Shown here in pieces: positions 3,395-37,231 of a DNA stretch of 39,584 nt. Position numbers and translations under genes: made by a program. The notes under the pieces are model-generated. The model saw nothing but the letters and a program-made list of their open reading frames with translations, was not told the DNA's origin and searched no databases. The stretch comes from an uncultured Gallionellaceae bacterium. Lineage in GTDB: Bacteria > Pseudomonadota > Gammaproteobacteria > Burkholderiales > Gallionellaceae. Location of the stretch: assembly GCA_903876625.1 (NCBI GenBank), contig CAIRAO010000294.1:1-39584 (forward strand), given 5' to 3'. Numbering within the stretch: position 1 is the stretch's first letter; every line of letters begins with the position of its first letter.

Positions 3395-6300
3395 ATGAAT
3401 CGTATTCTTTCAATATTTTTGTCCTTTTTTGTTTCGTTTGTGTTTTCGCATGTCTATGCGGCAGAGATGGCCACATCAGCCGATCTTGCTAAAGCGGTAT
3501 TTGAAAAATCAGTACCCATTATAAAAGGGGGGCAAAAGTTGCTGGAAAGCAGCGGAGACCGTCTATTTTTTTCAATGGCGGATGGATCTGTTGCGGTAAC
3601 CGATTTTGAAGGAAAGTTGGTTCAATTTTTGCAAGCTAAAGAGGGCGGGGAATCAATATTAAAAAAACCTGAAGCAGTTGCATTAGGCGCGGGGGTGATC
3701 TACGTTGCAGATAGTGAACAGAGTCAAGTGGCGATGTTCTCAAGCGAAGGCAAATATCAGGGAAGTATGGGGGCGAAAAAGGGCGGTTTTTTTGCATCGG
3801 GAGGAGGGGAGAGCGAACTAAAAAAACCGCGAGGTGTCGCATTTCAAGATGGCATTGTTTTCGTAATCGACAGTGGATTAAAAAAAATATTGTTGTACGG
3901 CAGTAACGGCGTGTTTATAAATACGCTTGACGTCAAACCTTCAACCGATGCCAACATAGCTAACAGTCAGGGTGATGAATATAAGTTGCGCGAACCCGTC
4001 GATATCAAAATTGATATGGCAGGTCGTCTGTACGTACTCGACGCGGAAGACTCTCTGGTCAAGATATATGCTTCAGATGGAAGCTACTTGCATGCAATTT
4101 TATGGGATGGAGCTTTGTTAGGTATTGTTGTCGCGCAAGATGGTTTGTATGTTGCGAAAGATAACGAGTACACAATCCAGAAATACGATTTCAATGCAAA
4201 ACTCATGTATCGGTTTGGTTCCAAGGGGGAAGGGAGGGATCAATTTTTGAGTTTGTCCGGCTTTGCTGTATCAAAAGATCGGCGAGTTATCTTGGCGGAT
4301 GCGGCTAAAGGTGTCGTGAACTTTTTTGTTGCTGAAGCGGGTATTCCGATTGAAGCAGTTCCAAAATTGTCGACGCGGGTATTTGTGCAAAGCATGGGAG
4401 AAGCTATTCCGGTTTTAGTCAACAAACTTGCCTGGAATGGCAAAGATACAATTTATGGCGTTGATACCGATCAAAATGCCATCATCGTCATTCGCAACGG
4501 AAAATTAGAAAAACCAATAAAACTTGCCGAGGTTATACCCGTTGCGATTGCAATCGATAGTTCGGATTCCGTTTGGATTCTGGATAAGAAAAAATATCGG
4601 GTTATCAAGCTCGATACTACCAATGGAAAAATCATTTCCAGTTTTGGCAGTGAGGGTTCAGGAAGTGGTCAATTTGATTCGCCAACCGATTTACAGATAT
4701 CCGCATCAGGTAGGATATACGTGGCAGACAAGGGGCGTGATTCCGTACAGATATTTGACAGCGAAGGGAAATTCGTCAATGCGATTGGCAAATTGGGTTC
4801 GCCAATAAGTATCGCTGTGGATGCGAAGGAAGATCTTTATGTTTTAGAGAATTCAACGAATACTGTTTCGATTTACTCTGCTCAAGGAGCTTTGATTGGA
4901 AACGCCGGCAAGGGAAAAGACGGCGCTCCCGGAACGCTTCTAAAACCTGTTGCATTGATGGTGACCCTCGATGAGATATCTGTGCTGGATAGAAATCGGG
5001 TGAAAGTTTACTCTCTAAAGGGAGAATATTTAAGATCCTTTGGAGCAAAAGGTGGACGCCCGGGTGAGCTGGATGAGCCCGTGGCAATCGTGCAAAAAGA
5101 CGATATGTCGTTCTATATTGCCGACAGTTCAAATAAGCGCATCCAAACTTTTTTAACTCAGTATAAGCCAATAGCTCCGCAGCATTTCGCTGCAAAGAAT
5201 GGACTGCACTTGATAGAATTAAACTGGGATCCGGTGCCTTTACCTTATGTTAAGCAATACCAGATTTACCGTTCAAAAGATGAGCATGCGGGTTTTGTTC
5301 GCGTGGGGACTACGAGTTCGAATCAGTTTGTTGATCGTGGGCTGGAAGCAGACGGAGTGTATTTCTATCTTGTGGCAGCCGAGACACGAACGGGATATGA
5401 GGGAGCGACAAGTGTATTGGTGAGTGGAATTTCAAAACGCTACACCCCCCCCGCACTTGCAGCAGTAGATGTCTCGGCAACTTCATGGCAAATAAAATTG
5501 ACTTGGAAGCCGATTGAATCCGAATTTGTTAATTCTTACTACATCTATCAGAAAGACGGAAATACTTTTACCAAGATTGGAGAGGCCATCACACCGGATT
5601 TTTCCAAAGATGCACTTACACCGAACACTAAATATACCTATTACATCTCTGCACATAGTACTGACGGGACAGAAGCGGAGAAGTTCGAAGTTAAAACTGC
5701 GACTCTGCCTTTCAATAAGGCACCTTTGGAAATTGAAGTGCTGAATTTGCAACCGGTCTTCTCAAGTGCTTACAAACAGTGTGAACAAGATGGAGTGGGT
5801 ACGGTTAGGTTAACAAACAACACGGATAAAGAAATAGAAAGTGTGACATTGTCTTTTATGCTGAAAGACTTTATGGATATTGTTATCGAGACAAAGCTGG
5901 AAAAAATACCTTCGGAGAAAAGTATTGAGGTCAAGCTTAAGCCAGCTTTTAACCATAATATCCTCAATATGTCAGAGGATACACCAGTGCAAATGATGCT
6001 GGAGGCAAGTTATTTTGAGAATGGAAAACGTGAGTCATACAGTAAGAATTCAACTGTCCAGATTTATGAAAAACACAAATTAACCTGGGATCAGCCGGAG
6101 CGCTATGCTTTTTTTATAACGCCTAATGATTCACCTTTGCAATCTTTTGTCCACTCAGTACAAGCTCAATACAAAGATACTAAAGATGAGACTCTGATGG
6201 CTGCCGCTATTTTTAATGCTTTGGCTGCATATGGAATAACGTATGTTAAAACCACCCCCAACCCAAACCAACTTGCTTCAGGTAAAACGATTTCATTAGA

Positions 6301-7117
6301 TTCGGTACAATTTCCTAGAGAAACATTGGAGAGGAAAACAGGGGACAGTGATGACATCGTTGCTTGTTACGTTGCCGCCTTGGAAGGTATGTCGATTCCT
6401 ACCCGAATAATTGAAGTGCCGGATCATAGATTCATGATGTTTTCGACAGGAGTGAAAGCAGAGGATGCGTATACGATGAACGACATGTATGTCATATTCG
6501 AAGGCAAGCTATGGATTCCTGTTGAAACTTCTTTGATAGAAAGTGGCTTTGCGAAAGCGTGGGAAGAGGGAGCAGCAAACTACTACAAGTCGAAGGGCAA
6601 GGGATTAACAACGCTGGATCTGTCGCAGGCTTGGCAAACGAATAAACCTGCCTATTTTGCCGAGTCCAAATTGAATCCGGGAACGTTAGGCAAAGATAGT
6701 ATTGAAAAGAAATTCCCGGATGAATCAAAATCAATCCTTGATATCAGCACCGGCACAAAAACACGACTTTATCGTCAGCGTATTGAAAAGGACCCGGCTG
6801 ATGCTGAGTCGCAGTTGCAGATAGGAATTATTCTGGAGAAATCGGGGGACCGAAAAGAAGCGATGAAATATTTTGATAAGGTCATTAACCTGCAACCCGA
6901 CAATGCAATAGCGCATAATAATCGCGGAAATCTGCTCATGCACGACAATAAATTTGCAGATGCGCAACAAGCCTATCAAAAGGCTGCTAAAGCCAGTCCG
7001 GATGATCAATCGGTATGGTTAAATTTGGCGAATGCTTACAAAGCGGGAAAAAAGACGAAAGAGGCCAATGAAGCTTTTTCCAAAGTTAAAAGCTTGGAAC
7101 AGGGCATAAAGAAATAG
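3395..7117 (+). CDS. Large exported protein: NHL/beta-propeller repeats, FN3 domains, transglutaminase-like domain, C-terminal TPRs
   Basis: Signal peptide (MNRILSIFLSFFVSFVFSHVYAAEM); repeated NHL-like blocks (LKKPRGVAFQDGIVFVIDSGLKKI, FDSPTDLQISASGRIYVADKGRDSVQIFDSEGKFV, LDEPVAIVQKDDMSFYIADSSNKRIQ); FN3-like PYVKQYQIYRSKD blocks; TGDSDDIVACYVAALEGMSIPTRIIEVPDHRFMMF; TPR repeats near the end. Confidence 0.85.
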   Translation: MNRILSIFLSFFVSFVFSHVYAAEMATSADLAKAVFEKSVPIIKGGQKLLESSGDRLFFSMADGSVAVTDFEGKLVQFLQAKEGGESILKKPEAVALGAGVIYVADSEQSQVAMFSSEGKYQGSMGAKKGGFFASGGGESELKKPRGVAFQDGIVFVIDSGLKKILLYGSNGVFINTLDVKPSTDANIANSQGDEYKLREPVDIKIDMAGRLYVLDAEDSLVKIYASDGSYLHAILWDGALLGIVVAQDGLYVAKDNEYTIQKYDFNAKLMYRFGSKGEGRDQFLSLSGFAVSKDRRVILADAAKGVVNFFVAEAGIPIEAVPKLSTRVFVQSMGEAIPVLVNKLAWNGKDTIYGVDTDQNAIIVIRNGKLEKPIKLAEVIPVAIAIDSSDSVWILDKKKYRVIKLDTTNGKIISSFGSEGSGSGQFDSPTDLQISASGRIYVADKGRDSVQIFDSEGKFVNAIGKLGSPISIAVDAKEDLYVLENSTNTVSIYSAQGALIGNAGKGKDGAPGTLLKPVALMVTLDEISVLDRNRVKVYSLKGEYLRSFGAKGGRPGELDEPVAIVQKDDMSFYIADSSNKRIQTFLTQYKPIAPQHFAAKNGLHLIELNWDPVPLPYVKQYQIYRSKDEHAGFVRVGTTSSNQFVDRGLEADGVYFYLVAAETRTGYEGATSVLVSGISKRYTPPALAAVDVSATSWQIKLTWKPIESEFVNSYYIYQKDGNTFTKIGEAITPDFSKDALTPNTKYTYYISAHSTDGTEAEKFEVKTATLPFNKAPLEIEVLNLQPVFSSAYKQCEQDGVGTVRLTNNTDKEIESVTLSFMLKDFMDIVIETKLEKIPSEKSIEVKLKPAFNHNILNMSEDTPVQMMLEASYFENGKRESYSKNSTVQIYEKHKLTWDQPERYAFFITPNDSPLQSFVHSVQAQYKDTKDETLMAAAIFNALAAYGITYVKTTPNPNQLASGKTISLDSVQFPRETLERKTGDSDDIVACYVAALEGMSIPTRIIEVPDHRFMMFSTGVKAEDAYTMNDMYVIFEGKLWIPVETSLIESGFAKAWEEGAANYYKSKGKGLTTLDLSQAWQTNKPAYFAESKLNPGTLGKDSIEKKFPDESKSILDISTGTKTRLYRQRIEKDPADAESQLQIGIILEKSGDRKEAMKYFDKVINLQPDNAIAHNNRGNLLMHDNKFADAQQAYQKAAKASPDDQSVWLNLANAYKAGKKTKEANEAFSKVKSLEQGIKK

Positions 7118-20403: not shown

Positions 20404-20452
20404 GTAGGACAAAGGTCCTACTCAAAATGTAAATTTTCAGGAGGAATGTCCT
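20404..20452 (+). promoter_or_regulatory. Conserved two-hairpin / inverted-repeat leader upstream of giant MCO paralog 1
   Basis: GTAGGAC-AAAG-GTCCTAC followed about 18 nt later by AGGAGGAATGTCCT; the same arrangement occurs at 28023-28070 upstream of the second MCO. Confidence 0.65.
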
Positions 20453-20612: not shown

Positions 20613-23600
20613 ATGAAGAAAGTCCAACGTAATTCATTCAAGCTGAACCCAATAGCGGCATCAATCGTATTGGCGATGAGCGCACAATTAGCGATTAATG
20701 TCGCATACGCCGGTGCAGGCTTTGGCGCCGCAGTGACCACCGGCGGTTCGGCTACCCAGCCACCGACATTTTATGCCAACAGCCCCTCGGGTCCTATTCC
20801 AGCACTAACAAGCGCGGCTCCTGCTGGAACGCTTCGCACTGACGGTAGCGGTCTCTTGACCACCACCACCACCGGCACCCCACTGCGCAAGTTTGTTGAC
20901 ACTTTGCCGGGTTTCGGCCTCGGTGCAAAGACTGGCGTATATAGCCCAGCCAAAGCAAACGGTCTCGGCCAGTTCATCCCCGTTGCAGTTCCAGAAAAGT
21001 GGTCCAATCCGCTGATCATTGACCCGGCGACCAAGCTGCCAGTGGTGACAGGTGACGACTATTACGAAATCGCTGCCGTCGATTTCAGTGAAAAGTTGCA
21101 CAGCGACCTGCCCAAAGCAACTCACATGCGCGGCTACGTTCAAATAGCAACACCCGGTTCTATTGCTGCTGCCAAAGCAGCTGCCTTGGCAGCAGGCACA
21201 ACATATAATGGACCTTATTTGCCAACTTCTGATGGTACTTCAACAGGCATACCTCTAGTTGGTGTTCCAGCAACGGTTCAACTGATGTACCCCCCGCATC
21301 ACCTCGGTCCTATCATCACCGGCAACAAGGGCACGGCGGTTCGTGTCAAATTTACCAACTACCTGCCGGTTGGAGGCAAGCTGTTCTTGCCAGTGGATCC
21401 CACCATTACTGGCGCCGGTGTCGGCGCCGATGGCGTCACCCCCTACACACAAAACCGTGCCGGCATGCACTTGGTCGGCGGACAATCACCCTGGATCAGC
21501 GCAGGTTCACCGCATCAGTGGATCGCTCCGGCTGGCGAAATCAATCCGGGTATTGATGCCAACGGCAATCCCGCTGCAGTACTCAATGCCAAGGGCCCCA
21601 GCGCCCAAAGCGCACCAGACATGCCCGATGCTGGCGCTGGTTCGACCTATTTGTATTTCCCGAACGACATGTCGGCTCGCTTCACCTTCATTCAGGATCG
21701 CACTAGCGGTCTCACGCGTCTAAATTCCTATGCCGGTCTCGAAGCCGGTTATGTCGTCACTGACCCGATCGAGCAGATCCTGATCAACGGTGGCACGCTA
21801 TCGGGCGGAGGGCTGAAGACCCCCGTGACCGTAGCTAAGGGCACGATTCCCGCGGCACAACTGCCGCTGATCATCGAAGACAAGACTTTCGTACCGGTCA
21901 ACTTTGCACAGCAGGATGCAAGATGGGATGCAGTCAATTGGGGCGCCCCTGGCGACCTATGGTTTCCGCACGTGTATGAGCCGAATCAGGCGGACCCAAC
22001 CGGTGTTAATACCGTTGCGGGGCTGGCTGGCGGCGCCAACCCGGTCGGTCGTTGGGACTACGGTCCGCTGTTCTGGCCTATCTTCCCAGTCGTGCCAGCC
22101 AAGTCTATGTTGCCAAATTTGAGCTTCGTACCTGAAGCCTACATGGACACACCACTGGTCAACGGTACTGCTTACCCGACAGTGGCTGTAGAAGCCAAGG
22201 CCTATCGTGTTCGCGTACTCAACGGCAGTAACGACCGTTACTACAACCTCGGCCTGTACGTGGCTGACTCGACGCCTGCCCCGTTGCTTGACGTAAACGG
22301 AAATCCGACTGTCGATGCCTTAACAGGTGCTTTCAAGACCACTCCTGCCGGCCTTACTGAAGTCAAGATGGTAGCCGCGACACCAATAGACACATTGGGC
22401 AGCCCACCGGGATGGGACGTTGTTAACGGCGTTCAGTTGCCGTTGCCGCAATTCGGTACGACTTTTCCGTGGAACATTAATGCCGAGCCTTCAGGCCCGA
22501 CCCGCGCTTGGCCGACCGACGGCCGCGTTGGTGGTGCACCCGATCCAACCACATCCGGTCCCGACTTCGTCGTGATCGGCAATGACGGTGGCCTGTTGCC
22601 ACAAGGTGTGGATATCCCTCCGCAACCGGTTACCTATGAACAGAATCGCCGCAGTATCACCGTCACCAACATCTATGGCTACGGCCTGCTGCTCGGACCA
22701 TCCGAGCGCGCCGACACCATTGTTGACTTCACGCCGTTCGCAGGCAAGACACTGATTCTGTACAACGACGCACCGGCACCTACGCCGTTCACTGATCCAC
22801 GTAATGATTACTTTACGGGCGATGCGGACAATTCAGCGACGGGTGGTGCTTATCCGACCCTGCCAGGCTATGGTCCGAACACACGCACCATCATGCAGAT
22901 CACCGTCGGTGCCAAAGGTGTGATCACCAACGGTGGTGGTGCTCTTAACGCGACCGCCCTGGCAGCAGCTCTGCCGGCTGCCTATGCTGCGACGCAACCG
23001 GTACCGTTTGTTCCGGAGTCGATCTATAACGCTGCTTTCGGTACCACCGATCCGGACAATTATGGCCGAGTCGCTACCGGTTCTGCTGCACAGCCGACCT
23101 TGAACTTTTCCAGAAGCTCCGCGACACTCACTCTGACCCCCGGACCGATGACTCTGGTCACCTCCGGTGGTACAGGAACAGGTTCGGGCACGGGTTACAC
23201 CTCCGTACCGCAGGTTGTTATTTCTGCGCCTAACCTTGCAGGTGGTCAGCAAGCGACCGCAGTAGCAACAATCAACGCATCTGGTCAGGTGGCAAGCGCC
23301 ACCCTCACGAGCGCGGGTTCAGGTTACACGTCAATGCCTACCGTCACCTTTGTGCCGACATCGACTGTAGCCAGCGTCGTCGTGGCTGATGGTGGAGCAG
23401 GTTATCTGTCCACCGACAAGGTTGTCTTCAGCGGCGGTGGTGCAGCTACACAGGCAACCGGTACCTTGACGGTTTCCTCGTCGTCAGCGATCTTGGGTAC
23501 GCCCACCATGGGGCTACCAGGTTCCGGCTATACTGTACCACCGACTGTTACCTTCACCGGCGGCGGTGGCTCTGGTGCCACCGGAGTAGCAACCATTTCT

Positions 23601-31200: not shown

Positions 31201-32904
31201 CACTTCCACCTGGTTAACGTGCAGGTCATCAACCGTGTGGGTTGGGATGGCACGATCAAACCGCCCGCAGCGAATGAAGTGGGTTGGAAAGAAACATTGC
31301 GCATGAACCCGCTGGAAGACGTCTATGTGGCTGTTAAGGCGGTTCATCCCGTGGTTCCGTTTGGTGTGCCTGCCAGCCATCGTCTGCTCGATCCCTCGCA
31401 AGTCGTCGGTTCGACCATGTATCTCACCAACATCGATCCAACGACCGGTGGTGCGCCAACGTTCCAGACGCAATTGGTGAATGGCGTCAATACGAATGTT
31501 GCAACGGGTACTTACAGTAACCAGATGACCGACTTTGACAACGAATACGTCTGGCACTGCCACATCCTGGGTCACGAAGAGTTCGACTTCATGCGTCCGT
31601 TTGTGTTCCACCCGAACGTCTTGGTGCCTGACGCACCGACCACAGTGGCCGTTACTAACGGCAAAGTGACTTGGGTTGATACGACCCCTGTTGGTGGTGT
31701 GGATGCCTATGGCGTTCCAACTACTGGTACCAATGCGGCTAACCCGACACTGAGCAGCAACCCAAAGAATGAGATTGGCTTCAAGATTTATGTCAATGTC
31801 GTTCCAAATGCTAACGGGTATGTTTCTGCCGCAGCAGTTCCTGCCGCAACGGTTCCTGCCAACGTGCAGAGCTGGCCGGCACCGGCCGGAGCAACAACTG
31901 CTAACACATTAGTTGTGGCCTACAACGCGGCGGGTAATTCTGTTGCAGGTACGTCAGGCACTACCTTCACGTCAGGTACAAACGTGGCAGTAACTCCGGC
32001 AGCTACAACGCCTGGAACGATGGCAGTTACCGGTGCTTCGATCGATTCGACTGGTTTGGTTGTAACGGTAACAAGCACGGCTGGCTACGTGGTTGGCGCG
32101 TCGGTCTCCGGTGGCGGTTTCCCTGCGGGAACGGTCATCGCCTCGATCAACGCAAACGGCACTCAGTTCACCACGTCGTTAGCTAGCACCACACCGGGCG
32201 TGACAAGTCAAACCTTGACCATCTCGTTGGCCGCGGCAGCAGCATTGCCAACACCGGCTGCATCGGCTGCACCGTCTGGCTTTACGCAGATACTGAATGC
32301 AAGCGGTACTGCAACTTTGAACTGGACTGCTGTTCCAGGTGCAACAAGCTATACCGTGAGCATTACTGAGACTAAGGCACCAGTTGCTCCAGCGTTAGTG
32401 GGCGTGACAGGGTCTCCAGTGGTTACACAGATACTTATAGTTGCTCCAGCGACAGTACCAGTGACGACCTACACGACGCCAGCAGCCTTGACAGTAGGTT
32501 CTACCTACGTGTTCTCGGTCACAGCGACGACGCTCAGCGGAACGACAGCTGCTGCGACAATTGGTTCTGCAACTATTGCTGGCTTAACTAATTCACCGAC
32601 TGCTCCACCAGTGGCTTTTGGTATCGCAGTTGATACCTCGACCGTTGTAGGTTCTGGTTCGATCACCTTGAATTGGGCTAACAATGTGTCGAACAAGAAC
32701 AACGTGGTTGGTCTGTTGCTGAAATGGAATGGTGGCCCTGCTGCCGGCGTGACGTTCAGTCCTGCCAGCACGGGTGCCACTGTGACTGGCTTGAAAACGG
32801 GAACAGCGTATAGTTTCACGCTACAAGCAATCAGCAATGTGGCTGCGTTTAATTCTACGGTTGTACCTGTTGCACCAGCGGTTGTTTCGGCAGTTGCTCC
32901 TTAA
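28210..32904 (+). CDS. mofA: Giant secreted multicopper oxidase, MofA-like (1564 aa), copper motifs intact
   Basis: NRIAIHWHGGDSPW (29128-29136), MMMYHDHVSG (29347-29355), SHPVHFHLVNVQVINRVG (31192-31209), VWHCHILGHEEFDFMRP (31555-31575); signal peptide; C-terminal FN3-like domains. MofA assignment is from memory of size, motifs and FKBP/cytochrome neighbours. Confidence 0.75.
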   Translation: MKKVKSSFFELNMGGAAIALAFATSLTANVAQANAGFGTVTDLTGQPVNVPTYFASSPQGIRPAFDPVTHALSTTGLTVDTGTPIRKFVDPLGGVYNGLETLNSLTDLQAGIPVALPEFWTNLAGQVTTDNYYEIAAVEYTEQLHSDLAKATRLRGYVQIETANLATNKNCVFQNSTKTACTDITSVVPSEHVAGVYPDGTPILDANGAQVYFVHKPHYLGPSIVAASGTPIRIKFTNYLPYTDINGVAHGSPSGGEYYLPIDETIAGGGPVTLQAGVDANGNPVAGPALDKTGKAIKFPQNRIAIHWHGGDSPWTNDGTPHQWFAPRGDASYSVKDALHPNGWGVGDSYANVPDMADPGQGSMTLYYPVNLSGRMMMYHDHVSGLTKINAYAGEAAGLIVYDMKELSLVANALRINLTLPSGTLASAVPLLDTVGIPLVIQDKNFVPKNIGPNAVASDGKTPASQDAKWDLTHWGQPGDLYFPHVYETNQDPNSIDGTNPVGRWDWGPWFWPVFPAQYSLPTGAYGDVTASPEAFLDTPTVNGQPYPTMTVEPKAYRFRILSIGNDRSFNLGFYQAVDAAGKVCDANNTAPATSPTAPGGIGAPATCTEVRMVPAQPTAGFPATWPTDGRAGGVPDPATAGPDIVQIGNEAGLLPAVAVLKSQPVTYEQNVRSITVFNILDHDLTLMPGERADILVDFSKYAGQTLIMYNDAPAPMPGYDPRIDYFTGVGDQTAAGGAYDTLPGYGPNTRTIMQFKVGATATSGGSLNMAALTTGLPVAYAATQPAPIVPESVYNQAFGTSYADTYAKIGTGSGTAPYWVYPVNGGTGNNGTLTLLRIDLSTAGSLYPAGTTVTIDPPLCTPIVVGSATCAPATATPTVGAGGRITGFTNFVAGAGYTTVPNVTFSAPSADGTRASALITANGFKVINKAIQELFDPVFGRMNATLAAELPFSTATIATTVPLAYIDTPIEYLDAIKDGETQIWKVTHNGVDSHPVHFHLVNVQVINRVGWDGTIKPPAANEVGWKETLRMNPLEDVYVAVKAVHPVVPFGVPASHRLLDPSQVVGSTMYLTNIDPTTGGAPTFQTQLVNGVNTNVATGTYSNQMTDFDNEYVWHCHILGHEEFDFMRPFVFHPNVLVPDAPTTVAVTNGKVTWVDTTPVGGVDAYGVPTTGTNAANPTLSSNPKNEIGFKIYVNVVPNANGYVSAAAVPAATVPANVQSWPAPAGATTANTLVVAYNAAGNSVAGTSGTTFTSGTNVAVTPAATTPGTMAVTGASIDSTGLVVTVTSTAGYVVGASVSGGGFPAGTVIASINANGTQFTTSLASTTPGVTSQTLTISLAAAAALPTPAASAAPSGFTQILNASGTATLNWTAVPGATSYTVSITETKAPVAPALVGVTGSPVVTQILIVAPATVPVTTYTTPAALTVGSTYVFSVTATTLSGTTAAATIGSATIAGLTNSPTAPPVAFGIAVDTSTVVGSGSITLNWANNVSNKNNVVGLLLKWNGGPAAGVTFSPASTGATVTGLKTGTAYSFTLQAISNVAAFNSTVVPVAPAVVSAVAP

Positions 32905-32912
32905 ACCAAATC

Positions 32913-32945
32913 ACCGGTGCCAGATTATTCTGGCACTGGTTCTTG
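32913..32945 (+). terminator. Probable terminator hairpin after MCO paralog 2
   Basis: ACCGGTGCCAG-ATTATT-CTGGCACTGGT then TCTTGGTTTCTT. Confidence 0.55.
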
Positions 32946-33077
32946 GTTTCTTGTAGTAAAGGTTTATTTAAAGTTTTGATTGTTGGAATACTGAAATTCA
33001 TCAACAGTTAGTTTGATTTGTGTCGCAATGACCATTGAAGGCTTAAAATACAATCCCTCCAGCGATCATTCCATTTC

Positions 33078-33203
33078 ATGAAGAAATTGATTTCGAATAC
33101 ACTATCCGGGTATTTGCTCTCATTAACTGTTAGTAGCGCATGTGGTATTCTTATTTCAGGTCTGTATGACTGTTTCGCAGAAACAGTTGAGTCATATGGT
33201 TAG
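33078..33203 (+). CDS. Possible small ORF (41 aa) with hydrophobic signal-like N-terminus
   Basis: MKKLISNTLSGYLLSLTVSSACGILISGLYDCFAETVESYG*; below the ORF-track size cut-off; no strong Shine-Dalgarno. Confidence 0.25.
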   Translation: MKKLISNTLSGYLLSLTVSSACGILISGLYDCFAETVESYG

Positions 33204-33233
33204 TAGTAGCAATTTTCTGAGGAGTAAAGTTAC

Positions 33234-33923
33234 ATGTTGCAACGTAAAGTGATTTTTTTGGTCAGTATTGTTTTAGCAACGAGTCAGGCTTGGGCTGAAG
33301 ACAAGCTCGAACTTAAGACGGATGCGGACAAATTGAGCTACAGCATCGGCGTGAGCGTCGGTAAGAATTTTAAAAGAGATGGAACTACTGTCGATCTCGA
33401 CCTGATGATAAAAGGCTTTAAGGCCGGGCTTGCCGGTGATAAGACGGTAATTTCGGATAGAGAGGTCCAGCAGATCATGGGCTCTTATCAGATGGAATTG
33501 CGCAAACAAGCTATGGCAAGAAATCAGGTGGCGATTCAGGAAAACAAGAAAAAAGGCGATGCCTACCTGGCTGAGAACAAGGCAAAGAAGGGCGTAGTGA
33601 CAGCTGACAATGGATTGCAATACAAGATCATCAAGAAGGGTAGTGGCAAGAAACCACTCGAGTCTGATCTGGTTGAAGTGAACTACCGCGGTACGCTAAT
33701 CGATGGCAAGGAGTTTGATGCTACTCAAGAGGGCAAGCCGGCCACATTGAAAGTATCCGCACTTATTCCGGGATGGAAGCAGGCGTTAACAATGATGCCC
33801 ACTGGTTCCAAATGGCAACTCGTTGTTCCATCCCAGCTTGCCTACGGCGAAAGAGGTGTGGGCAATGACATAGGCCCGAATGAAGTGCTTGTTTTTGAGT
33901 TGGAATTGGTAGGAATCAAATAA
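33234..33923 (+). CDS. FKBP-type peptidyl-prolyl isomerase, secreted, with N-terminal dimerisation domain (MofB-like position)
   Basis: Signal peptide ...SQAWAED; FKBP_N-like KLSYSIGVSVGKNFKRDGTTVDLDLMIKGFKAGLAG; catalytic domain VEVNYRGTLIDGKEFDATQEGKPATLKVSALIPGWKQALTMMPTGSKWQLVVPSQLAYGERGVGNDIGPNEVLVFELELVGIK. Confidence 0.93.
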   Translation: MLQRKVIFLVSIVLATSQAWAEDKLELKTDADKLSYSIGVSVGKNFKRDGTTVDLDLMIKGFKAGLAGDKTVISDREVQQIMGSYQMELRKQAMARNQVAIQENKKKGDAYLAENKAKKGVVTADNGLQYKIIKKGSGKKPLESDLVEVNYRGTLIDGKEFDATQEGKPATLKVSALIPGWKQALTMMPTGSKWQLVVPSQLAYGERGVGNDIGPNEVLVFELELVGIK

Positions 33924-33996
33924 TCTGAAACCAATATTGATTCAGTATTGAACTTTCAGAATTTTAGAATGGAAAATTTTCGTAACCAATGATTTG

Positions 33997-34049
33997 AGGG
34001 AACCTCTAACTATTCAATGCGACAAGAATTGGATTTTTAGAGGTTCCCT
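33997..34049 (+). promoter_or_regulatory. 13-bp perfect inverted repeat between the two FKBP genes
   Basis: AGGGAACCTCTAA (33997-34009) / TTAGAGGTTCCCT (34037-34049), 27-nt loop, about 24 nt upstream of the second FKBP start. Confidence 0.7.
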
Positions 34050-34072
34050 TAAACCTTTACTAAAGGAGATCG

Positions 34073-34702
34073 ATGATGAAGAAGATGAAATGGATTGCGC
34101 TATTAAGCCTTGGATTAATCGCTTTGCAGGCCAATGCTGCGACGCCTGTTGTGATTGACAACCAGGCGATCGGTGCGGATACCAAAGAAAGTGGAGAAAG
34201 TGTAGGAAAGGCACAAACTAAAGCCCAATCTGATGACGAGGCCGCCAGAGAGAGGATTCGCCTCAGCGGTAGACTCAGCAACAGAGAGAAGGCACAATTA
34301 GTCAAAGCGGAAGTTGCAGAAACCAACAAGACTGAAGGCGCGAGTTTTCTGGCAAGCAACGGCGCAAAAAAAGGTGTAATCACTTTGCCTAGCGGAGTGC
34401 AATATCGTGTCATTCGTGCGGGCAAGGGCAAGAAGCCGACTGAAAATAGCGCTGTGGTATGCAAATACAAAGGTACTTTGCTTAACGGTGATTCATTCGA
34501 TATGTCGGAGGGTAAAAAACCCGCCACCATGCTTGTCTCTGGTTTTCTGCCAGGTGTAAAGGAAGCTGTTTTGCTGATGGCCGGCGGAGCAAAATGGGAA
34601 ATCGTTGTGCCGCCTCAGTTGGCCTATGGAGCCACTGGAAATCGTGGCGTAGGAGCTAATGCAGTTGTGGTTTACCAGATGGAAATCATAAGCATCAAAT
34701 AA
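34073..34702 (+). CDS. Second secreted FKBP-type peptidyl-prolyl isomerase, divergent
   Basis: Signal peptide MKKMKWIALLSLGLIALQANAA; FKBP core VVCKYKGTLLNGDSFDMSEGKKPATMLVSGFLPGVKEAVLLMAGGAKWEIVVPPQLAYGATGNRGVGANAVVVYQMEIISIK. Confidence 0.9.
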   Translation: MMKKMKWIALLSLGLIALQANAATPVVIDNQAIGADTKESGESVGKAQTKAQSDDEAARERIRLSGRLSNREKAQLVKAEVAETNKTEGASFLASNGAKKGVITLPSGVQYRVIRAGKGKKPTENSAVVCKYKGTLLNGDSFDMSEGKKPATMLVSGFLPGVKEAVLLMAGGAKWEIVVPPQLAYGATGNRGVGANAVVVYQMEIISIK

Positions 34703-34707
34703 TCTGA

Positions 34708-34738
34708 ACAGAGCGGAGGCGAACCTTCCGCTCTGTTT
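34708..34738 (+). terminator. Terminator after the second FKBP gene
   Basis: ACAGAGCGGA-GGCGAACCT-TCCGCTCTGT-TT. Confidence 0.7.
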
Positions 34739-35096
34739 AGATGGTTTAATTCATCTAGAGCTATCCAAACTCAGTGCATGAATACGACTAAAGAATGCTG
34801 AGCTTCAGTTTTGCTGCGTTTAGTTGGAATAATATATTAATCTGCAACCTGTGGAATTAAGTGCTGGCAAGCAATAATGGATCTCAATCGCGATAGTGTG
34901 CAATTTTCCTTCACTCTGGGGTTGGTACATTGGAGCGAAATGAGATGTAATTTCCATTCAATCCTACAATGAATTAAGGATCCCACGTGCGCCGCACGAT
35001 AGAGAGTTTTCTTTATTTATGCGAGCCCAGAATATCCAAAATAGTTTTGGTGATAAAATATTTTTCATTGATAATTTTATAATGCATGAAAGTTTC

Positions 35097-35231
35097 ACCC
35101 CCTCCCTGTCCTCCTCCGAGGGGAGAGGGTTATGCTCCCTATATTGGGAGGATTAGCGTGCTCTACCTGCCAGACCTTTTAGGATTGGGGTTCTGTTCCC
35201 TCTACCATCGCGGGAGGGCTAGGGAGGGGGT
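35097..35231. repeat. REP-pair / BIME- or MITE-like element with 11-bp terminal inverted repeats
   Basis: ACCCCCTCCCT (35097-35107) and AGGGAGGGGGT (35221-35231) are perfect inverted repeats, with further C/G-rich hairpins inside. Confidence 0.75.
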
Positions 35232-35314
35232 TTGTGATAACGATGTAATGATTTTTAACCTCGCTCCAGTAAATAACTCTTACAATGTACTTTTCCTGAA
35301 CGGATAACTTAACG

Positions 35315-37231
35315 ATGAAAAAACAAAGGTTGACTGGCCTGTGCAGAGCTGTGCGTGAAGCGAAAATGACAGCTACTTTATTGGAAGATAGTGTTGTTCG
35401 ACTAGGCGTACTTTCTCTCCTGTTTGCATTCGGTCAATTCATACCCGTTGCGTCACAGGCGCAAGAGGCTGCGAGCAGCGTAGAACAAGTGAATGCGATG
35501 GCTCAAGTAAATTCGCCTGAACTGGTTGAAATTGGAAGAGGAATTTATACCAAAGGTGTTTTATCTTCCGGCGCGATGTTGACGGGGAAACGTTTTGGTA
35601 AAACTCCAATCTCCGGGGCAGATGCCGCATGTGTCAAATGTCATCGTCCAAGTGGAATGGGGCAGGTTGAGGGCGATATTCAGGTATCACCGATCAACGG
35701 CAATTATCTGTATGCCACTCGGAAGGACAAACCGACTGCGATCATGGATCCGCGCATCAGTAAATTATTCAATCAGGCACATGATCCTTACAACGATCAA
35801 TCTTTTGCAACTGCGGTAAATGAGGGTGTCAATAATCAAGGCCGCGAAATGAATTCTGTCATGCCCAGATACAATCTGGAGGAAACTGACAGAAAAGCGC
35901 TCACTGCTTATTTAATCCAGTTGTCGGCACAATGGTCACCGGGCGTTACTGAAACCTTGATACGCTTCGCCACAGTGATCACTCCGGAAGTCGATCCTGT
36001 GCAACGCAAGGCGTTCATCGACATGATGCGAACCATCGTGCAACAGAAAAATGGTAGTACTCTGTTACCAAACATCCAGCACACCCGTCACCATATGACT
36101 TCTGCTGCTGAATTGATACTGGGAACGGAACGAAAGTGGGAATTGGATATTTGGGAGTTGCAAGGTGAATCTGACACCTGGGGCAAACAGTTGACAGAGC
36201 ACTATCAAAAACAGCCGGTATTTGCCTTGCTTTCCGGGTTGTCACATTCAACCTGGCAGCCTGTGCATGATTTTTGTGATCAAGAAAAAGTGCCTTGCTG
36301 GTTTCCGAGCGTGGATGTGGCATCCAAAACCCAATCGCAATACGCATTCTATTTTTCCGGAGGGGTGACGCTGGAGGCGGACGTGCTTGCTCGTCATTTT
36401 CTTGAAAGAAAAAAATTACCCAAACATCTGATCCAGATTTATCGTGATGATCAAGTGGGGCGCGCAGCGAAACAAGAATTGGCACACGCGCTGGAAGGCA
36501 CTGCAATTAAAGTTGAAAACCGCGCACTGAATACTACACCTTCGTTAGTCGTATCATTCAAACATTCTCTGGCAGGCATTAAGTCGGGCGACGCGGTGAT
36601 GTTCTGGTTGCGCGATGACGACATTAAAGAATTGGGGAATTTAAAACCGCTGGCAGGCGTCAACTATAATTTTTCAGCGAGACTCGCGCAGCCTGAAAAT
36701 ACAACGCTCAATAAAAAATGGAAAGCTAGCTCTCACTTTGTTTATCTATATGAATTACCCGAGAACCGAAAATTGAATCTGGATTACTTCCATGTATGGA
36801 TGAATTCGCGGCACTTCGTCACGGTTGATGAACCGATGCAGACGGAAGTTTTTTTTGCCACAAACTTCATGACCGATACCCTATCGGAAATGTTGAATAA
36901 TCTTTACCGAGATTATTTGCTTGAGCGTTCTGAAACGATGATAAACAAACGCGAGGGAGTTAAATCGGAACAGGAAACCAGAGATCGAGTTGCTTTGGGG
37001 AATAAAGGAGATTTGGAAAGACGCTTCGGTAATGAATTTATAGACGAAAGTCAACGAATTCAGGTCGTGAAACAAAATAATAGTTCCCCGGTTTCGCATG
37101 GTACGACGATGTATCCCCACTTGAGTCTAGGACCAGATCAACGCTTCGCTTCCAAGGGGGGTTACATCGTCAAGTTTGGTGGTATGGACGGGAATACTTT
37201 AATCGACGAAAGTGGCTGGATCGTTCCTTAA
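35315..37231 (+). CDS. Monoheme cytochrome c fused to a periplasmic-binding-protein-like (type 1) domain (MofC-like position)
   Basis: Heme motif CVKCHRPSGMG (35630-35644), candidate distal Met in GREMNSVMPRYNL, then KWELDIWELQGESDTWGKQLTEHYQKQPVFALLSGLSHSTWQPVHDFCDQEKVPCWFPSVD...YAFYFSGGVTLEADVLARHFLE. Confidence 0.8.
   Translation: MKKQRLTGLCRAVREAKMTATLLEDSVVRLGVLSLLFAFGQFIPVASQAQEAASSVEQVNAMAQVNSPELVEIGRGIYTKGVLSSGAMLTGKRFGKTPISGADAACVKCHRPSGMGQVEGDIQVSPINGNYLYATRKDKPTAIMDPRISKLFNQAHDPYNDQSFATAVNEGVNNQGREMNSVMPRYNLEETDRKALTAYLIQLSAQWSPGVTETLIRFATVITPEVDPVQRKAFIDMMRTIVQQKNGSTLLPNIQHTRHHMTSAAELILGTERKWELDIWELQGESDTWGKQLTEHYQKQPVFALLSGLSHSTWQPVHDFCDQEKVPCWFPSVDVASKTQSQYAFYFSGGVTLEADVLARHFLERKKLPKHLIQIYRDDQVGRAAKQELAHALEGTAIKVENRALNTTPSLVVSFKHSLAGIKSGDAVMFWLRDDDIKELGNLKPLAGVNYNFSARLAQPENTTLNKKWKASSHFVYLYELPENRKLNLDYFHVWMNSRHFVTVDEPMQTEVFFATNFMTDTLSEMLNNLYRDYLLERSETMINKREGVKSEQETRDRVALGNKGDLERRFGNEFIDESQRIQVVKQNNSSPVSHGTTMYPHLSLGPDQRFASKGGYIVKFGGMDGNTLIDESGWIVP

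Follow-up and report, generated by a model that had tools for sequence, protein, structure and literature searches.

Gene content of the mof-like locus

The window analysed here is a stretch of 39,584 nucleotides (contig CAIRAO010000294.1, assembly GCA_903876625.1) from an uncultured Gallionellaceae bacterium. Our analysis concerns a mof-like locus at window positions 20613-37231, where the open reading frames define five genes, all on the + strand, with successive intergenic gaps of 277, 329, 149 and 612 bp from P0001 to P0005 (Table 1). An initial annotation of this DNA had described two multicopper oxidases (MCOs), two FKBPs and a cytochrome c in one direction, and this five-gene set was confirmed, both MCOs being of the MofA/CotA type. 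The set is not there by chance, because the same set recurs in other genomes. The likeness to mofABC that was proposed at the same time is borne out by the architecture: the content and the order MCO-FKBP-cytochrome c are those of mofABC, including MofC with its unusual union of a cytochrome c and a periplasmic-binding domain. This comparison covered homologues of the same cluster type.

Each component of a mof operon could be recognized. P0002 has the Pfam domains Cu-oxidase_2 and fn3 at the C-terminus; it is a MofA-type MCO with the four copper motifs in order, and it is predicted to be secreted, as judged solely from a signal-peptide-like N-terminus. FKBP_N and FKBP_C domains were found in both P0003 and P0004, and P0003, which has the canonical pocket Trp, provides the adjacent Mip-like peptidyl-prolyl isomerase (PPIase). 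P0005 combines Cytochrom_C (haem motif CVKCH) with Peripla_BP_6, the latter match lying below the curated cut-off (E 2.9e-5), and thereby has the MofC architecture; the MofC proteins of related loci are 37-62% identical to it.

Table 1. Position of the genes, ligand motifs and other features of the mof-like locus in the window
Feature	Position	Strand	Description
P0001	20613..27932	+	2439 aa; predicted secreted pseudo-multicopper oxidase
P0001 motif 1	21468..21476	+	H-L-V (was H-W-H); type 3 (T3) His lost, type 2 (T2)-type His retained
P0001 motif 2	21693..21701	+	Q-D-R (was H-D-H); both T3 His lost; QDR in 10/10 orthologues
P0001 motif 3	24696..24713	+	N-S-I-H-F-S (was H-P-V-H-F-H); type 1 (T1) and T3 His lost, T2-type His retained
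P0001 motif 4	25107..25145	+	G-S-A-I-L-G-H-A-E-N-D-F-T (was H-C-H-I-L-G-H-E-E-F-D-F-M); T1 Cys, both T3 His and axial Met lost, one T1 His retained
P0002	28210..32904	+	1564 aa; MofA/OmpB-type MCO
P0003	33234..33923	+	229 aa; MofB-type FKBP PPIase, canonical pocket (FK1)
P0004	34073..34702	+	209 aa; divergent FKBP (FK2)
P0005	35315..37231	+	638 aa; MofC-type, monohaem cytochrome c with periplasmic-binding-protein-like domain
Perfect palindrome TAGGACAAAGGTCCTA	20405..20420	+	precedes the dead MCO gene by 208 bp; candidate operator
Perfect palindrome TAGGACAAAAGTCCTA	28023..28038	+	precedes the active MCO gene by 187 bp; candidate operator
Strong hairpin, 18 pairs	34702..34742	+	directly 3' of the FK2 gene; terminator-like

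Loss and conservation of the copper sites in the paired oxidases

The copper motifs of P0002 are intact, with all 12 ligands present (IHWHGG, YHDHVSG, HPVHFH and WHCHILGHEEFDFM). Its nearest solved structure is CotA laccase, whose four motifs align with these in unchanged order, and the T1 copper and trinuclear-site ligands of a closely related laccase (PMC9138216) correspond to the motif positions of P0002. The structure model of the active core (predicted local distance difference test score, pLDDT, 58; predicted template modelling score, pTM, 0.63) is usable at fold level only, and CotA was its best match.

P0001, in contrast, keeps only 3/12 ligands in the ligand columns of the alignment and has lost the other 9/12. 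This protein, referred to here as the dead MCO, consists of a signal peptide, a MofA-type core with a repeat insertion of the GSGYTxxPxVTF type between cupredoxin regions, and a long C-terminal repeat tail. It is a paralogue of P0002, with 42% identity across ~980 aa (tblastn, alignment), and it is nested within the MofA tree, which makes it a member of the MCO superfamily by descent. A Pfam scan gave no family match for P0001 and the PF07732 profile had no match in its own genome; therefore, the dead MCO would escape a search by family profiles alone. The NCBIfam PhsA model does match P0001 (E 3e-14), the match falling below the cut-off of the model. The motif sequences read MHLVGG, IQDRTSG, NSIHFS and WGSAILGHAENDFT. 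Thus the T1 copper set of His, Cys, His and Met reads N, S, H and T, and the trinuclear site retains two of its eight His, all six T3 His being gone. Because the T1 Cys, one T1 His, the axial Met and the six T3 His are lost, P0001 is predicted to be incapable of acting as a normal MCO, and it would presumably carry no metal. The EXXE iron motif, which occurs once in P0002 and is not found in P0001, is uninformative in this respect. The initial annotation had seen one canonical and one divergent member in each pair, which holds both for the ligands (12/12 against 3/12) and for the FKBP pocket (Trp in P0003, Val in P0004). It appears to have understated the main point, however, namely that the divergent MCO is to all appearance copper-less and conserved in that state.

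Our analysis has also shown that the loss is shared. Ten orthologues of P0001 have almost identical ligand replacements (ligand table), with Asn at the T1 His (9/9), Ala at a T3 His (9/9) and Ser or Thr at the Cys (9/9) in addition to the invariant QDR. The retained His are likewise conserved, i.e., the first His of motif 1 in 9/10, the middle His of motif 3 in 8/9 and the T1 His of motif 4 in 9/9, and the orthologues of L009 and L016 have Arg at one of the retained T2-site His pair. The orthologues are 1630-2510 aa long with open frames in independent genomes, and 47% of the columns of the dead MCO core are invariant. In a tree of 896 columns from which the copper-motif columns had been removed, the dead MCOs form one clade (support 100/100), as do their active neighbours (100/100). 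Pairwise ratios of nonsynonymous to synonymous substitution (dN/dS) over the core, which are approximate since synonymous sites are partly saturated, lay between 0.17 and 0.29 in the dead copy, which is under purifying selection, and between 0.10 and 0.20 in the active one. Outside the dead clade, all 12 ligands are present in P0002 and in every other relative with readable motifs, except for a degenerate copy in genome G085 that is described below.

Pairing of the two genes is strict. Wherever a neighbour was visible (the window, L001, L003, L004, L005, L006, L007, L009, L011 and L016), the dead and active genes were adjacent (10/10 loci). The active gene comes first in eight of them, and the dead gene does so in the window and in L004. 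Two genomes each carry two separate active and dead pairs (L005/L007 and L006/L009). Two dead copies are present in the same-genus genome G120, where an FK1-FK2-MofC set follows an active-type C-terminus. Because the pair of living and dead copies is conserved in related freshwater bacteria, these comparisons suggest that the dead twin is a functional partner rather than a decaying gene.

The second FKBP and the question of co-duplication

P0004 diverges from P0003 in its pocket, where Trp is replaced by Val and the equivalent of Phe99 by Tyr, and its FKBP_N domain is shortened. It therefore lacks both residues expected of an active FKBP PPIase (Trp59 and Phe99), although its sequence would still be compatible with some residual PPIase activity. 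P0004-like proteins from seven mof loci and from G085 form one clade (FK2; support 100/99). The pocket Trp is replaced by Leu or Val and the last pocket Phe by Tyr in 7/8 of them, and the basal member, from G085, keeps the Trp. FK2 is associated with the dead MCO: no locus or genome without a degenerate MCO was seen to have it, and where a locus was fully visible, FK2 was present in 6/9 pairs and in 0/6 single-MCO loci (Fisher p 0.017, uncorrected for shared ancestry). The MCO pairs of L001, L005 and L009 are without an adjacent FK2. The own genome contains a second mof-like locus, L092 (G000:C348, 4457 bp), with FK1-FK2-MofC followed by an SCO1/SenC-like gene, the MCOs lying off the contig; SCO1 was called there from sequence and by analogy with neighbours identified in relatives.

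Genome G085, of the same family, has the order active MCO, FK1, degenerate MCO, FK2-type FKBP and MofC. Its degenerate MCO has lost other ligands than P0001 (HLHGG is kept, followed by YHDQ, HPVYFN and WTNGMLGWAELDFM), and the greater part of it branches as sister to the active MCO of the same locus. Its placement in the dead clade was rejected by the approximately unbiased (AU) test, with a p-AU of 0.0024 for the whole core and 0.0007 for columns 240-892. In a sliding comparison, however, the first ~240 columns place the degenerate copy among the dead MCOs and its neighbour among the active ones; the sister arrangement was not firmly rejected for these columns (p-AU 0.25; 0.05 for sub-segment 70-240, which was chosen after inspection). 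The G085 pair (L081 6171-19998) therefore looks mosaic, with the old dead/active split in the first cupredoxin region and recent sister copies in the rest. Taken by itself, the whole-core test (p-AU 0.002) would point to an independent second origin of a dead partner; with the mosaic in view, G085 can be explained either by a second loss of copper in one copy of a tandem pair or by an ancient common pair whose signal gene conversion has blurred. Both readings are in keeping with a copper-less copy beside an intact one being a favoured arrangement.

The initial annotation had proposed that an oxidase and its dedicated foldase were duplicated together. This is compatible with our results and not proven by them. 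We give a nearly even chance to the version in which MCO and FKBP were duplicated as one block, each oxidase with its matched foldase, which could be combined with the explanation that we favour below. The FK2 clade and the dead MCO clade are each single and co-occur, the second FKBP of G085 lies within the FK2 clade and is no recent local copy (p-AU 0.0009), and the first cupredoxin region of G085 pairs degenerate with dead and active with active. However, the three pairs without FK2 weigh against a block, as does the remainder of the mosaic G085 pair, and the N-terminal signal of G085 is weak. FK2 has evolved several-fold faster than the MCO (stem branch ~0.8-1.0 versus 0.29 for the dead MCO), and the tree cannot order the two duplications in time (p-AU 0.22).

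Genomic context and distribution

The palindrome TAGGACNNNNGTCCTA (TAGGAC-N4-GTCCTA) occurs at exactly two sites in the 3.93 Mb genome, one before each MCO start codon. It also precedes a dead MCO in the same-genus genome G120 (L094), whereas a look at the MCO genes of more distant loci showed no copy upstream of them. A promoter/terminator scan of the region gave a number of sites no higher than in shuffles. Upstream of the locus, the window contains genes for SapC and FeoB, and dTDP-sugar genes lie downstream; they were not seen again in related loci and seem unconnected with the mof-like locus. The window also encodes, at 3395-7117, a 1240-aa protein with NHL/beta-propeller repeats, fn3, a transglutaminase-like domain and tetratricopeptide (TPR) repeats.

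In relatives, SCO1/SenC copper-chaperone genes lie next to the locus, as do the E, F and G genes of type II secretion, and the window has neither. GspE, GspF, GspG and SCO1/SenC genes were seen beside the mof loci in L001 (4686-9585), L004 (19879-25000), L005 (15296-16893) and L083 (1899). These neighbours may form a specialized set for export and copper loading, and their position would suit oxidases that are secreted with copper bound.

RuBisCO was found in 96/101 family genomes, the own genome included; therefore, most of the family is autotrophic. Few genomes of the family carry mof-like MCOs (~8/159). Single-MCO loci with the order MCO-FKBP-MofC are present in Rhodocyclales L008, G012 and G771. 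In a wider sampling of 400 genomes of the order and 387 of the class, relatives of MofA were found only in G018 (same family), G771, G651 and G879, where the readable motifs are intact and no dead/active pair was seen. In G018 (L080; G018:C1, ~1516000-1530400), a 4651-residue open frame encodes an entire MofA-type core that is copper-competent; it lies ~20 kb away from a second active MCO, which is accompanied by FKBP and MofC.

Proposed role of the pair and comparison with known systems

Taken together, we find it rather probable that the locus is a secreted mof operon with an active oxidase, a copper-free pseudo-oxidase scaffold, two foldases and MofC as electron carrier. The host is a RuBisCO-bearing, autotrophic betaproteobacterium, probably one of the Gallionellaceae. 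We predict that P0002 takes in electrons at its T1 copper and reduces O2 at the trinuclear site outside the cell; Fe(II) or Mn(II) is its likely but unproven substrate. P0001 would be an old tandem paralogue of the same fold family that was turned into a pseudo-oxidase, enlarged by repeats and retained by selection. By the precedent of SufI/FtsP, its most likely role would be that of a non-catalytic surface or matrix scaffold, which may assemble with or position the active oxidase and bind the substrate or the product mineral. P0003, as a foldase, and P0004 would fold or hold the two giant MCOs, P0004 with its altered pocket probably being dedicated to the folding or holding of the second one. 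MofC could then relay electrons and so link the reaction to the periplasm. Our comparisons show directly the loss of the ligands and the conservation of that loss, the single clade, purifying selection, the strict pairing and the association of FK2, whereas the secretion route, the scaffold role, the metal substrate and the client of FK2 are what we infer. In a stronger form, the pair would be obligate: Mof-type oxidation of environmental metal in this group would depend on a heteromeric complex at the cell surface, and the copper-free paralogue, served by a modified FKBP of its own, would be a subunit that this complex needs for its structure or regulation; we offer this only tentatively, as it is somewhat doubtful.

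Several observations weigh against the scaffold operon. The AlphaFold model of the dead core is poor (pLDDT 47, pTM 0.43), and therefore its preserved fold rests on sequence. Two T2-site His are retained in most orthologues, so that a mononuclear metal site is possible. Given the gaps of 149-612 bp and the hairpin 3' of the FK2 gene, a single transcript is uncertain. Lastly, OmpB of Geobacter sulfurreducens, a MofA homologue with fn3 and a MofC homologue nearby, is implicated in Fe(III) oxide reduction (PMC5566968), so that the redox reaction might run in either direction.

Other explanations of P0001 must be weighed against this reading. It might be a mineral- or matrix-binding surface protein (adhesin, sheath or stalk) that works independently of P0002, its MCO fold being a relic and the two genes being linked by co-regulation. 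The very large, repeat-rich C-terminus, the variable insertion, the wide range of orthologue lengths and the separate palindrome upstream of each MCO gene all speak for this, yet it is the MCO core itself and not the tail alone that is strongly conserved, and the strict pairing fits physical or functional coupling better; we regard such independence as unlikely. It is more improbable still that P0001 is a new enzyme or a metal carrier in which the T2-site His pair and one T1 His form a mononuclear Cu, Mn or Fe site. The three His are indeed retained in nearly all orthologues, and those of motifs 1 and 3 are what we take to be the type 2 ligands of laccases. However, two orthologues have Arg at one of the pair, the degenerate copy of G085 keeps a different ligand set, and retained positions are unremarkable where nearly half of the core columns are invariant. 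That P0001 is a decaying pseudogene or an assembly artefact is scarcely credible. The loss of most ligands and the source of the sequence, a metagenome-assembled genome of 492 contigs with an estimated contamination of 5.57%, would allow it, but the long open frames in independent genomes, their single clade, a dN/dS of ~0.2 and the same replacement residues throughout led us to reject it.

The locus resembles the mofABC cluster of Leptothrix discophora SS-1, the MofA/OmpB clusters of iron oxidizers and that of Rubrivivax A210, in all of which an MCO, a Mip/FKBP-type PPIase and a cytochrome c with a periplasmic-binding domain are found (PMC5566968, PMC8218464). mofABC has been reported for L. 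discophora, Gallionellaceae sp. KS and Ferriphaselus R-1 (PMC5566968), and some of these clusters have copper chaperones alongside (PMC5566968; PMC8218464). Whereas these clusters are described with one copper-motif MCO and one FKBP, the locus described here has in addition a copper-less MCO and a pocket-altered FKBP. The Geobacteraceae locus L013 also includes an FKBP but, unlike the window, no degenerate partner was seen in it. The function of mofABC is likewise unproven (PMC5566968). MofA came under suspicion as an Mn/Fe oxidase nearly three decades ago and still lacks functional proof. If our reading is true, the conserved copper-free partner encoded beside it would offer a concrete explanation should MofA fail when it is expressed by itself.

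MnxEFG of Bacillus is a metal-oxidizing MCO with partner subunits that are not MCOs, MnxE and MnxF being small and unrelated to MCOs. It serves as a working analogy for a complex of active and accessory subunits, although MnxE/F, unlike P0001, have no MCO relatives. mnxG was not found in Gallionellaceae, and a pangenome of the family gave few BLAST hits to mofA, with no demonstrated Mn oxidation (PMC10734462). CotA laccase and bilirubin oxidase (PDB 1gsk, 7z5p) are the nearest solved relatives of the MCO core and share its four motifs in the same order; they are active proteins of ~500 aa, whereas the MofA-type core is ~1000 aa long with inserts and C-terminal repeats. A search of the available literature returned no description of a dead MofA paralogue or of an MCO pseudoenzyme in metal oxidation, and we know of no other copper-free MCO that is kept beside its active paralogue. 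Surveys in which MCOs are recognized by their copper motifs, such as that of L. ochracea (PMC11412304), would overlook copper-free partners.

The closest parallel is SufI/FtsP of E. coli, for which the part of the published account used here describes 2/12 copper ligands, a metal-free crystal and a proposed scaffold role (PMC2661564). Like P0001, it is a protein of the MCO superfamily that has lost most of its copper ligands. In that same part of the account, SufI is a three-domain periplasmic cell-division protein that is not placed beside an active oxidase (PMC2661564), whereas P0001 is a giant, putatively secreted paralogue next to its active partner and belongs to a different MCO branch. 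If the proposed role is true, P0001 and its orthologues would stand beside SufI as a second and independent example of a non-catalytic protein derived from the MCO fold.

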